Positions 39,761-43,257 of a stretch of 64,000 nt of DNA are shown here, piece after piece. Source of the DNA: Planctomycetia bacterium (lineage in GTDB: Bacteria > Planctomycetota > Phycisphaerae > Phycisphaerales > SM1A02); the NCBI GenBank assembly GCA_005787685.1, contig SYAC01000004.1, forward strand, positions 62,001-126,000. The letters run 5' to 3'. Position 1 is the stretch's first letter; every line of letters starts with the position of its first letter. The notes below the pieces were generated by a model. It was not told the origin of the DNA. It did no database searches and saw only the letters and a program-made list of their open reading frames with translations. A program made the position numbers and the translations under genes.

Positions 39761-40914
39761 GTTTGGTGCCACGGATTGTTTGCGTGACGGATCCGTGTGG
39801 TCCGGGCGCGGGCACCGCAATGCTTGCCGCATGTGCGCAGGCCGTGCGCGCGCTTGAGGCTAGGGTTGGAATAGGCCATGTTGAAGTTGGTGTGCTTGGC
39901 ACACCTTTGGCCACGCAGCTTGCACGGGCGTGCGGTCTTGCGCCCGCGTGGCGAATTCCGTTGCCATGCGCGAATCTACGGCTTGCGCAACCCGCGTTGT
40001 CGCGGTTAATGGATCATCCAACGCCCAGCGTTGTGGTGGCGTGGGGAGCGCGCGCGGCGCAGTTGGTTTCACACTCCATGCGCGACACTCCTTTGGTGGT
40101 GATCATGGATACCCCATTTGAATCTCACAGGGTTTTTCACGCTGAATTCGCTGAACTTTTGTGCTTTGGAGATGCCATGGCCGATCGTGCATGCGCATTG
40201 GGTTGGCTTCCAATTCGTATTCGATCCATTCTTTCAGCCATGCCGCCGTGGCAGCAAGATCCTGCGTGTGATCGCAATTCACTGCGTAGAAAATGGGGCG
40301 CGACAAATGAAGATGTTGTTCTTGGAGTGTTGCCCGTGTCCGGCGATGGCGCCGACGCCTTGTTTGCGTTTCATGCCATGGGGCGATTTGTATTTGCCGG
40401 GTATGGCGCGCGCGTGATTCTTCATCCACATATGAAAAACGCACATGCGGTTCGATCCATCGCCCGCAAATTGGATCTGAATGATCGAGTGTATTTTGAT
40501 TCATCGATTGAATGCCCGTGGAAATTATGCGCTGCGGTCGATCTCTGGTGTTCATTGACAAGCGGCAATCTGGACGAAACTGCGTTGCATCATTCAAGCG
40601 CGGCGGCTTTGGGCGCGCCCCTTATTGCGCAAAGTGGAAGTTTGGCCGCGGCCGCAATTGATCACCTAGTGGATGGAAGAGTTGCCGGCGAAGGCGTGAA
40701 TGCATTCGCGTTTGAATGTATACAAGCCGCGAAAAATCCCGCTTCGTTGGCGGCCATGACCAGCGCGGCGCGCGTGAAGTATGCAAAGCAAAATGTTCGC
40801 GACGGATTCACGCTTGCCATTGTGGAGGGCATTCAACGTGTCTGTCCAGAGGCATTGCGCGCGGCGCCAACTGATGCACCGGCGGATATGAAATTGGCCG
40901 CGGCGTCGACATAA
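39757..40914 (+). CDS. Glycosyltransferase-like protein (GT-B fold, divergent)
   Basis: 385 residues. Starts with GTG overlapping the lipoprotein stop. Two Rossmann-like halves: IVCVTDPCGPGAGTAMLAA at the start, and in the second half GVLPVSGDGADALFAF, GYGARVILHPHM, RVYFDSSIECPWKLCAAVDLW and an acidic ETALHHSSAAALGAPLIAQ, all like the C-terminal half of GT4 enzymes (the E-x7-E region is changed). Donor and acceptor unknown. The last 82 bp overlap the 3' end of the CsrA fusion gene on the other strand. Confidence 0.7.
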   Translation: MSLVPRIVCVTDPCGPGAGTAMLAACAQAVRALEARVGIGHVEVGVLGTPLATQLARACGLAPAWRIPLPCANLRLAQPALSRLMDHPTPSVVVAWGARAAQLVSHSMRDTPLVVIMDTPFESHRVFHAEFAELLCFGDAMADRACALGWLPIRIRSILSAMPPWQQDPACDRNSLRRKWGATNEDVVLGVLPVSGDGADALFAFHAMGRFVFAGYGARVILHPHMKNAHAVRSIARKLDLNDRVYFDSSIECPWKLCAAVDLWCSLTSGNLDETALHHSSAAALGAPLIAQSGSLAAAAIDHLVDGRVAGEGVNAFAFECIQAAKNPASLAAMTSAARVKYAKQNVRDGFTLAIVEGIQRVCPEALRAAPTDAPADMKLAAAST

Positions 40915-42188
40915 AGGGATTTCAGCAGCGAGGCGGGCAAGTGTTGTCCGCGCAATCGCGGCGCGTCCATGGCGCTAAAGCGCTTGGGATCAACCATGGC
41001 AAGGTCGGGATCGGCAATTGGACTTTCACCATCAAACCTACTTTCCCACAGTGTTCGCAAGGCCCAGTAGCGGCTGGCGTAGAGATCAAACGCGTCCTCG
41101 GGACGACTTGCTTTGGCGGCCATTTCACTTTTAGACTCGCCCGCGATCATGTGTTCGTCGGTGGTGACAATGTCGCTTCCAAAAAGAATGCGTCCGCGAA
41201 ATCGCTCAAGAAAATTTTGAACCGCACCTGCTGGATGTTTTGAAATTTCCCGCAGTATCCATTTTGTGGCGCTGGTGTCCAAAAATAAATTGGGATGGCG
41301 ATCTAAAAGCCCGGTGAGAAAGTTCAAATCCTCTGGCCATCCACCCATGTGCGCCGCCAACCAGGGCGCGGTGAATCGGTCAAGTAATCTTTCAAGTGGA
41401 AGATATTGCGCGGACTTGGTTCCGTAGCGCGCGGCATCGCTATAGCGCGTTTGAAACCAAGTGTCGGGGTCGGCGATGTGCACCATGAGCGACATGCCCA
41501 ACTTCGTGGCCATGTCCATGGCGGCAATTCGTATGGGCGCGTCCAATTCAAACATGGTTGCATCCCCGGCTTCGATGGCATAATCAACGCTGCGCGGTGC
41601 CGCCCAAATTTTGCAAAGCCGCGAACCCAGTTCGTGATATTGACCAATACGCTCCAAAAATCCGGCGCCAAGTGCATACTTGCGATCTTTGGAGGCGAAA
41701 TCTGGAACCGCGATCAAGCGCAGTCGATCACCTAACTCCGCGCGCACGGCGGGCACTTGTTCCAAATAAGTCATGGACCAAATCGAACCAATGCCGAACA
41801 AGTCCATGGCCTCGCGCAAAATGGCGCTGGCGCGCCCACCGTTGACGTGTGAATGCGCGTCGGTGATGGCGAAGGGCAACTTTGGGAATTGGGCGCCAAG
41901 CGCGCGGTAATCCCACCCAAATCGATTGGATGGATTCACTTTTTGCGGTGACGACAATGGGGTTGAAGCGGGGGGACTTTGTCCGTCAATCGGATTGCCG
42001 TCCTTGCCAGGTTGATTTGAATTAATTTGATCGGCCACTTCGCGCCTGTTGACCGGAATCTCTCGCGAAAAATCAAATGCAAGGCGAACCCTGTCACCTT
42101 TGATTGAACTCACGCGAACAATTCCCAGCGGCGCAGCGGGGTCACCAATCACAACTTCTTCACCTTCTCGACGGGTAAATGCCAGCAT
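40833..42188 (-). CDS. CsrA RNA-binding domain fused to a TIM-barrel amidohydrolase
   Basis: 451 residues in one open frame. Residues 1-56 are a CsrA/RsmA domain: MLAFTRREGEEVVIGD, then GDRVRLAFDFSREIPVNRREV. Arg6, Arg7, Gly9, Glu10 and Arg48 (equivalent to R44 of E. coli CsrA) are kept; Leu4 is Phe. A Pro/Ser/Gly/Asn-rich linker (57-88) leads to an amidohydrolase_2-type barrel (about 103-430): D110-A-H-S-H114 metal pair, H237 (VHIADPDTW), H280 (AAHMGGWPED) and D339 (LFGSDI). The start at 42188 is chosen because CsrA begins at its first Met; a 21-codon extension is possible but unlike CsrA. A hairpin array with five CsrA-type motifs lies just upstream. Substrate and RNA targets are unknown. 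Confidence 0.9.
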   Translation of the reverse strand: MLAFTRREGEEVVIGDPAAPLGIVRVSSIKGDRVRLAFDFSREIPVNRREVADQINSNQPGKDGNPIDGQSPPASTPLSSPQKVNPSNRFGWDYRALGAQFPKLPFAITDAHSHVNGGRASAILREAMDLFGIGSIWSMTYLEQVPAVRAELGDRLRLIAVPDFASKDRKYALGAGFLERIGQYHELGSRLCKIWAAPRSVDYAIEAGDATMFELDAPIRIAAMDMATKLGMSLMVHIADPDTWFQTRYSDAARYGTKSAQYLPLERLLDRFTAPWLAAHMGGWPEDLNFLTGLLDRHPNLFLDTSATKWILREISKHPAGAVQNFLERFRGRILFGSDIVTTDEHMIAGESKSEMAAKASRPEDAFDLYASRYWALRTLWESRFDGESPIADPDLAMVDPKRFSAMDAPRLRGQHLPASLLKSLYVDAAANFISAGASVGAARNASGQTR

Positions 42189-42338
42189 TGAGTGGGACCG
42201 CCTTGCCTTGTGACTATCTCGCCGCGGTGCTCCAAGCCTCCGCGAATCCATGCGATGAAGTCAACTTCATGCGAATTTACAGACGATCAGTCTACCCAAG
42301 GCAATCCCAAAGCCCAAACCAGGCAATTTGTATAAAAA

Positions 42339-42369
42339 CGCCCCCGTACCGGGTCACGGTACGGGGGCG
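42339..42369 (-). terminator. Intrinsic terminator of the candidate CsrB-like RNA
   Basis: A perfect 13-bp stem (CGCCCCCGTACCG with its complement) around a 5-nt loop, followed on the minus strand by TTTTTATA. It ends transcripts coming from mraZ and the hairpin array, before the CsrA fusion gene. Confidence 0.93.
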
Positions 42370-42573
42370 ACGACGGATAGAACCCCAAATTCAGGGTTCC
42401 AGAGTCCTTGCCGCCATCCTTGGCGGGTCAAACCCTTCTCAACGAGCCGTCCTTGGCTCGTTTGTTCGGTTCGAATGGTCTCCACTTCGCCGTCCTTGAC
42501 GCAAGTGGAGGTGACCATTCGTTGCTCTCCCGCGTTGGGCCATCCTTGGCATCAACGCAAGTTCTGAATCAAA

Positions 42574-42592
42574 CCGCCGCGCACTGCGGCGG
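42574..42592 (-). terminator. GC-rich hairpin just after mraZ (possible terminator)
   Basis: A 7-bp CCGCCGC/GCGGCGG stem with a 5-nt loop, 20 bp after the mraZ stop. On the minus strand it is followed by TTTGATT, a poor T-run, so it may be only a weak terminator or the first stem of the RNA. Confidence 0.45.
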
Positions 42593-42611
42593 ATTTAATA
42601 TTTTCCAAAAA

Positions 42612-43076
42612 TCAATTCGAATTTCTATTTCGCATTGTTTCGCGGGCTCGTCGCAAAATGTCCGCGGCGGCCGGCTCAAGTCGTTCACGCTCTTCCTTCC
42701 ATTTGTCGCTGGTGCACAATTCCAAATGATCTCGAACCCCAAGAATGATTATATTTCCCGTCAATTTGTAGCGTTGCAGCATTCGATCCGGAATGCGCAC
42801 TCGACCCGCCTTGTCGAGCGGACAACGCGAGGACTGGCTGTAGATCAAACGCTCGGAATCCTGAATGTCCTCGTCGCTCACCAAGGAACCACCAAATTTG
42901 TTGGACAATTCCGAAAAAGTTTTTTCCGGCCACAGGCACAGAAAATCGTTGGATCCAGGCGCTGAAATAAACACCGCATCCACACCCTCGTTGGGAAAGC
43001 AATTGCGTAGCTCGGATGGAATAGCCAGGCGTTGTTTCGCATCGAGTGAATGTTCGAATTCGCCTAGGAAGAGCAT
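42612..43076 (-). CDS. mraZ: MraZ transcription factor (orphan)
   Basis: 154 residues, normal length. Start ATG at 43076 gives MLFLGEFEHSLDAKQRLAIP. Two SpoVT/AbrB-like halves are visible: LDAKQRLAIPSELR (11-24) and CPLDKAGRVRIPDRML, each with the D-x-x-x-R motif. MraZ is a ring-shaped DNA-binding protein that represses the dcw (division and cell-wall) operon. No dcw genes (rsmH, ftsL, ftsI, mur) follow; the next element is the hairpin array and then the CsrA fusion gene. Planctomycetes lack a standard ftsZ-based dcw cluster, which fits an orphan copy. An MraZ operator lies 26 bp upstream. Confidence 0.95.
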   Translation of the reverse strand: MLFLGEFEHSLDAKQRLAIPSELRNCFPNEGVDAVFISAPGSNDFLCLWPEKTFSELSNKFGGSLVSDEDIQDSERLIYSQSSRCPLDKAGRVRIPDRMLQRYKLTGNIIILGVRDHLELCTSDKWKEERERLEPAAADILRRARETMRNRNSN

Positions 43077-43101
43077 TTTGCACCTGTAAAGAGTGTAACT
43101 T

Positions 43102-43131
43102 CTATTTCCCACTTTGCAACACTTTGCCCCA
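43102..43131 (-). promoter_or_regulatory. MraZ operator (three 10-bp direct repeats)
   Basis: On the minus strand the repeats read TGGGGCAAAG, TGTTGCAAAG and TGGGAAATAG at exact 10-bp spacing. Known MraZ sites are TGGGN boxes set 10 bp apart; here the middle box is weaker (TGTTG). The site sits 26 bp before the mraZ start, so autoregulation is expected. Confidence 0.85.
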
Positions 43132-43257
43132 CTTCTTCTTCAAAATGTCTAAATTTTTTGATTTCGAACAAGTACAAGCCCCACATACAAGCGTCCTATA
43201 TTTATATAAATACTTGTAAATTATGGATTTAGGCTAGTAATATTATTTTTTTGAGAT

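Follow-up and report, generated by a model that had tools for sequence, protein, structure and literature searches.

A hairpin array behind mraZ as a probable CsrA-titrating 3' UTR in the planctomycete class Phycisphaerae

The window, i.e. the whole stretch of 64,000 nucleotides from a Planctomycetia bacterium that was analysed here (contig SYAC01000004.1), carries on its minus strand a GC-rich element of about 250 nt (42331-42600) located between mraZ (42612-43112) and a gene encoding a CsrA domain (40833-42251). The mraZ coding sequence (minus strand, Pfam MraZ 57 bits) has a conserved start near 43077, and the hairpin array described below begins approximately 20 nt past its stop codon. The CsrA-domain gene, here termed csrA2 (minus strand, Pfam CsrA 39.4 bits, conserved start around 42191), continues in frame into the coding sequence of an amidohydrolase-like protein (about 390 aa). 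This fusion was observed in this genome only; in relatives csrA2 stands alone, and in those of the same genus the amidohydrolase is encoded by a separate convergent gene. The fusion may be genuine, following a recent inversion, or it may stem from the assembly.

Five CAAGGAY motifs are present on the minus strand of the element (starts at 42548, 42498, 42455, 42422 and 42410), exactly as the first-pass annotation had reported, and a further 13 occur elsewhere in the window on the same strand and 11 on the other. Folded as a single strand, the array reached -135.9 kcal/mol compared to -93.7 kcal/mol in shuffles (z = -7.95), and none of 200 shuffled sequences was as stable. The predicted fold displays four accessible AAGGAY loops before the terminator. 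Hairpin 2 (42528-42562) carries an AAGGAU hexaloop on a GCC/GGC stem with covariation in its helix and a probability of 1.00 that the GGA of motif 42548 is unpaired in the ensemble, while hairpin 3 (42473-42523) presents AAGGAC of motif 42498 at the tip of a longer arm (0.83). Hairpin 4 (42441-42462, motif 42455, 1.00) exposes an AAGGAC hexaloop on an 8-bp stem for which compensatory changes were found in the alignment of relatives, and hairpin 5 (42411-42426, motif 42422, 0.99) an AAGGAU hexaloop on CCGCC/GGCGG, supported by both fold and alignment. The fold thus bears out the earlier description of three AAGGAY hexaloops on GCC/GGC-closed stems (42548, 42455 and 42422) and of one motif capping an arm. 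The fifth motif (CAAGGAC, 42403-42410) had been described as unpaired, a claim that did not hold up: its GGA is predicted to be paired (probability unpaired 0.12) and the motif is not conserved in the genus, being kept in only part of its members. Hairpin 1 (42574-42592), the most mraZ-proximal, has no GGA in its loop in the window copy, even though its stem is kept by compensatory changes, with four pairs altered on both sides in the genus alignment. Since the loop GGA is present in the genus relatives L009, L011, L068 and L077, hairpin 1 looks like a decayed site.

Downstream of these loops, hairpin 6 (GGAACCC/GGGTTC, helix 6 of the genus alignment) is followed by a conserved ATCCGTCG box (together 42373-42400), and the element closes with a predicted intrinsic terminator of 13 perfect base pairs plus a T run (42335-42369), as had been noted before. 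The ATCCGTCG box (alignment columns 236-243) directly precedes the terminator and is conserved in the genus, and CCGTCG variants of it recur in other genera. The alignment fold pairs this box with an upstream CGAAUGG, a long-range pairing that competes with hairpin 3. When the genome was searched with a triple-motif pattern, the array was the sole multi-site locus, accompanied by one match resembling a chance match in coding sequence. Single GCCANGGAHGGC sites elsewhere in the genome were mostly located inside open reading frames, and no regulon was therefore inferred from them.

Among 60 relatives searched, the array DNA was matched in 12 other genomes, nearly all belonging to the same genus; for one of the relatives (G016) the match comprised 27 nt and lay outside the array. 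Every local stem is maintained in an alignment of 11 arrays from the genus, in which 97.5% of the cells are standard pairs and 19 of 55 pairs have changed on both sides. Pairing values of this magnitude were reached by none of 500 shuffles, and a shift of the partners by one, two or three columns left at most 50% paired. The loops behave differently from the stems. The loop of hairpin 4, for example, reads AAGGAC, AGGGAC, AGGGAA, ATGGAC or ATGGAA depending on the genome, and the rule that emerges from the relatives is an A, a free second base, GGA and then mostly A, C or T (A-N-GGA-H). In sequence terms the array loops follow the CsrA rule exactly, with a fixed A and GGA and a free second base; the CANGGANG hexaloop has been described as having high affinity for CsrA (PMC4894983). 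The contrast of varied stems and constant loops, which had been noticed inside the array, also holds between genomes, and the proposal that relatives would keep the loops fixed while the stems covary was borne out. Between genera only the loops are held in common, not the stem sequences, and hairpins from outside the genus could not be aligned.

To follow the array beyond the genus, mraZ loci were collected via protein similarity (80 loci, 53 after dereplication, Phycisphaerales). Hairpins directly follow the mraZ stop codon in almost all of the 80 loci, whatever gene comes next. The 300 nt located 3' of the stop in the 53 loci contained 217 hairpins, of which 87 have an A(N)GGA loop, compared to a mean of 1.45 (maximum 4) in dinucleotide shuffles of the same regions and to 2 of 189 hairpins on the antisense strand. 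Expressed as density, this corresponds to an average of 1.64 such hairpins in each 303-nt region versus 0.030 in the remainder of the same loci. The loop motif A.GGA was found 53 times with 0.79 expected, and permuted motifs (A.GAG, G.AGA, A.CCA) stayed near background. A chance origin of the A(N)GGA hairpins is excluded. In all array-bearing loci mraZ is the conserved neighbour. The array lies upstream of csrA2 only where mraZ is upstream as well, and most other genera either have csrA2 convergent with mraZ or lack it, the array there remaining with mraZ. The conserved partner of the array is mraZ, not csrA2.

The sequence around mraZ gives indications of the transcript to which the array belongs. 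Upstream of the gene, a likely MraZ box with GTGGGGCAAAGTGTTGCAAAGTGGG repeats at 10-nt spacing is present on the minus strand (43104-43140). Triple GTGGG/GTGTT repeats with this spacing precede mraZ in 44 of 53 loci compared to 2 in a reversed-sequence control; we take them to have the form of known MraZ boxes and, judging from the known biology of MraZ, they are presumably bound by this protein. Hairpins become abruptly more frequent at the mraZ stop codon, which in three genomes or loci (G016, G020 and L179) is itself overlapped by a hairpin, and 40 of the 53 loci have a terminator behind the array. A scan for sigma-70-like promoters, which may not fit those of Planctomycetota, gave no match between 42180 and 43300, and the genus alignment contained no conserved AT-rich promoter-like stretch. 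In the simplest reading, the array is likely to be co-transcribed with mraZ as the 3' UTR of a monocistronic mRNA that is under MraZ autoregulation. Several Phycisphaerae families beyond that of the window (L272, L261, L275, L278 and others) have a short conserved ORF (about 70-80 aa) directly after mraZ, which sometimes contains A(N)GGA hairpins.

The taxonomic range was counted with one rule, A(N)GGA-loop hairpins within 400 nt after mraZ. In the class Phycisphaerae without family f62, at least one such hairpin was present in 66 of 84 genomes and two or more in 42, with antisense counts near zero. Elsewhere in the phylum a hairpin was found in 3 of 26 genomes, which equals the antisense background level. 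Because several of these 26 genomes do have CsrA, the array at mraZ is a feature of the class rather than of the phylum. Two complete planctomycete genomes from outside the class, G106 and G083, exhibited an unusual expansion of CsrA paralogues with 17 and 9 CsrA-domain matches, respectively.

Within the class, several lineages provide natural deletions. Family f62 lacks CsrA in all six genomes sampled, four of which are less than 90% complete, and the array is absent from the same six; compared to the other class families outside the order this yields a Fisher p of 0.003 for what is probably a single loss and thus one phylogenetic event. Three genomes of 94-96% completeness (G016, G020 and G032) have lost csrA1 and fliW and kept csrA2 together with the array, and several genomes of family f61 with a single CsrA of the CsrA1 type have kept their arrays. 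Persistence of the array with only a CsrA1-type protein or only CsrA2 indicates that it goes with CsrA in general. Exceptions were found in both directions: one genome (G132, 87% complete, fragmented assembly) has an array and no CsrA match, and the class families f54, f55 and f65 have CsrA and no array.

The window genome and most of its relatives encode two CsrA paralogues, a canonical CsrA1 beside fliW and the divergent CsrA2. Compared to E. coli CsrA, CsrA2 has a short insertion and in the relatives retains the RNA-binding TRR and VHR (R44) residues; the window copy reads VNR instead of VHR and retains R44. An exclusive pairing of the array with CsrA2 was considered and rejected, as families with one CsrA1-type CsrA also have arrays. 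Judged from these distributions, the partner of the window array may be CsrA1, CsrA2 or both. The leader of csrA2 itself (e.g. in L077, L068, L011 and L067) has kept a GCGGAGGCTTGGAGCACCGC hairpin. Several genomes also have AGGAGG as the ribosome site there, near or in the loop of a small hairpin, which may be an autoregulatory site.

We consider a CsrA-titrating 3' UTR of the mraZ mRNA the best reading of these observations and a probable one. The computations themselves show that the array exists, forms a covarying structure with CsrA-type loops under selection, is linked to mraZ, is biased to the sense strand, ranges across the class and is missing from the family lacking CsrA. CsrA binding to the array is very likely, titration as its outcome is moderately likely, and a coupling to growth and division via the array is speculative. 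In the proposed mechanism, several hairpins would present A-N-GGA-H hexaloops as high-affinity CsrA sites, and several CsrA dimers would bind the array RNA, either in the whole mRNA or in a 3' fragment processed from it, and be withheld from other mRNAs. Expression of mraZ, tracking growth and division, would in this way lower free CsrA. Counted in favour of this sponge are the loops conforming to the CsrA rule, the covariation, the mraZ linkage, the overlap with the stop codon, the terminators and the MraZ boxes, together with the RNA-binding residues TRR and VHR (R44) in CsrA2 and the natural deletion experiments represented by f62, by G016, G020 and G032 and by the f61 genomes. Counted against it are that f62 amounts to a single event seen in partly incomplete genomes, that G132 has an array and no CsrA match, and that f54, f55 and f65 are array-free. 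E. coli CsrB has 22 GGA motifs. Four to five sites per RNA are few by comparison, and titration would therefore require an abundant RNA.

Other explanations start from the same array. That it is a compact, self-contained and terminator-ended unit like CsrB or RsmZ, and the sole multi-site array that the triple-motif pattern detects in the genome, would suit a CsrB-like small RNA encoded by a gene of its own, transcribed from a promoter within the last part of mraZ and placed there for historical reasons. Planctomycete promoters may deviate from the pattern used in the sigma-70 scan; on the other hand, that scan gave no match, the alignment contains no conserved AT-rich promoter-like stretch, several genera have hairpins across or right behind the mraZ stop, and the linkage to mraZ is kept across the class while the gene order beyond it changes. 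We regard such a gene as quite unlikely. Attachment of the array to csrA2 as a leader or attenuator that mediates cis autoregulation via the terminator would be suggested by the arrangement seen in the genus of the window and in four further genera sampled from the family, all of which have array and terminator immediately 5' of csrA2. Most other genera, however, have csrA2 convergent to mraZ and no array upstream of it, and families without csrA2 also bear arrays. With the array following mraZ where csrA2 is convergent or missing, this explanation is highly improbable and was rejected. The same distribution bears on the two alternatives offered by the first-pass annotation: a sponge in the 3' part of the mraZ mRNA fits the data, while an RNA tied to the adjacent csrA is true only locally and does not generalise, because csrA2 is convergent or missing in most other genera and the array stays with mraZ.

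A further possibility takes the constant company of array and mraZ as a sign of regulation in cis, with CsrA acting at the 3' UTR to govern stability or processing of the mraZ mRNA and affecting the pool of free CsrA little. CsrA keeps RNase E from cutting CsrB near the CsrB terminator (reviewed in PMC7652899), which makes a comparable protection of the 3' end plausible. Stability control would, however, not need three to seven sites maintained through stem turnover, and the sites are located far from the mraZ start, which makes direct control of translation unlikely. As the main role of the array we consider this unlikely, while a cis effect on the mraZ mRNA in addition to the sponge role is possible. 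Extended to the class as a whole, the sponge reading would describe a dual-function mraZ mRNA in Phycisphaerae, whose ancient 3' UTR acts as a CsrA antagonist that couples MraZ to global translation control, exists beside FliW and has survived the loss of either CsrA paralogue; we give this broader proposal an even chance.

Neither the window nor any of ten related loci matched an Rfam covariance model above its gathering score, the best weak match being RsmW with 15.9 bits compared to 52 required (E = 4.1), and the array is consequently not a member of the CsrB/RsmZ group by homology. The earlier label of a CsrB/RsmZ-like decoy stands for the several A(N)GGA hairpin loops and the terminator but not for relatedness to CsrB or RsmZ, while the comparative evidence gives good support to the more general idea of a CsrA decoy with several sites outside the Proteobacteria, and from it we infer the binding itself. 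CsrB/CsrC and RsmX/Y/Z likewise combine several A(N)GGA hairpin loops with an intrinsic terminator, and the expected effect is likewise CsrA sequestration. They are stand-alone genes of Gammaproteobacteria under BarA-UvrY/GacAS control, whereas the array is attached to mraZ, has fewer sites and occurs in another phylum. According to PMC4333381, Gammaproteobacteria are the only group in which CsrB-type RNA antagonists have been identified. Their presence is reported to be anti-correlated with that of FliW (PMC4894983, PMC7652899), unlike the array, which coexists with it. A link of this kind between mraZ and CsrA was not found in the open-access literature searched, where absence is no proof of absence overall. 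The case described here is a class-wide, multi-site CsrA-type array that follows one conserved gene, probably as part of its 3' UTR, beside FliW and in another phylum. If true, it would mean that RNA sponging of CsrA arose independently, and it would link MraZ, conserved but poorly understood, to CsrA. Loop-conserved, stem-variable arrays behind a fixed gene could serve as a search rule for further cases.

The closest known system in design is RsmU of Xanthomonas campestris, an RsmA-sequestering RNA processed from a 3' UTR (PMC7694677). RsmU derives from the 3' end of an unrelated mRNA, as the array probably does, and like the array it has several GGA motifs and no Rfam match; its host is a comEA-type mRNA and it is confined to the genus Xanthomonas, whereas the array follows mraZ class-wide in a different phylum with conservation of the loops only and putative binding. 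TwoAYGGAY (RF01731) and the Bacillaceae-1 RNAs are, like the array, predicted CsrA-binding hairpins outside the Gammaproteobacteria (PMC4333381), but consist of two defined hairpins in Clostridia and Bacilli and do not match the array. Titration of CsrA by a protein-coding mRNA, as proposed here for mraZ, has parallels in the flaA mRNA of Campylobacter jejuni and the fim mRNA leader of Salmonella. The flaA mRNA, itself repressed by CsrA, coexists with FliW as the array does (PMC4894983). The flaA and fim sites are few and located in the 5' leader, while those of the array are located in the probable 3' UTR.
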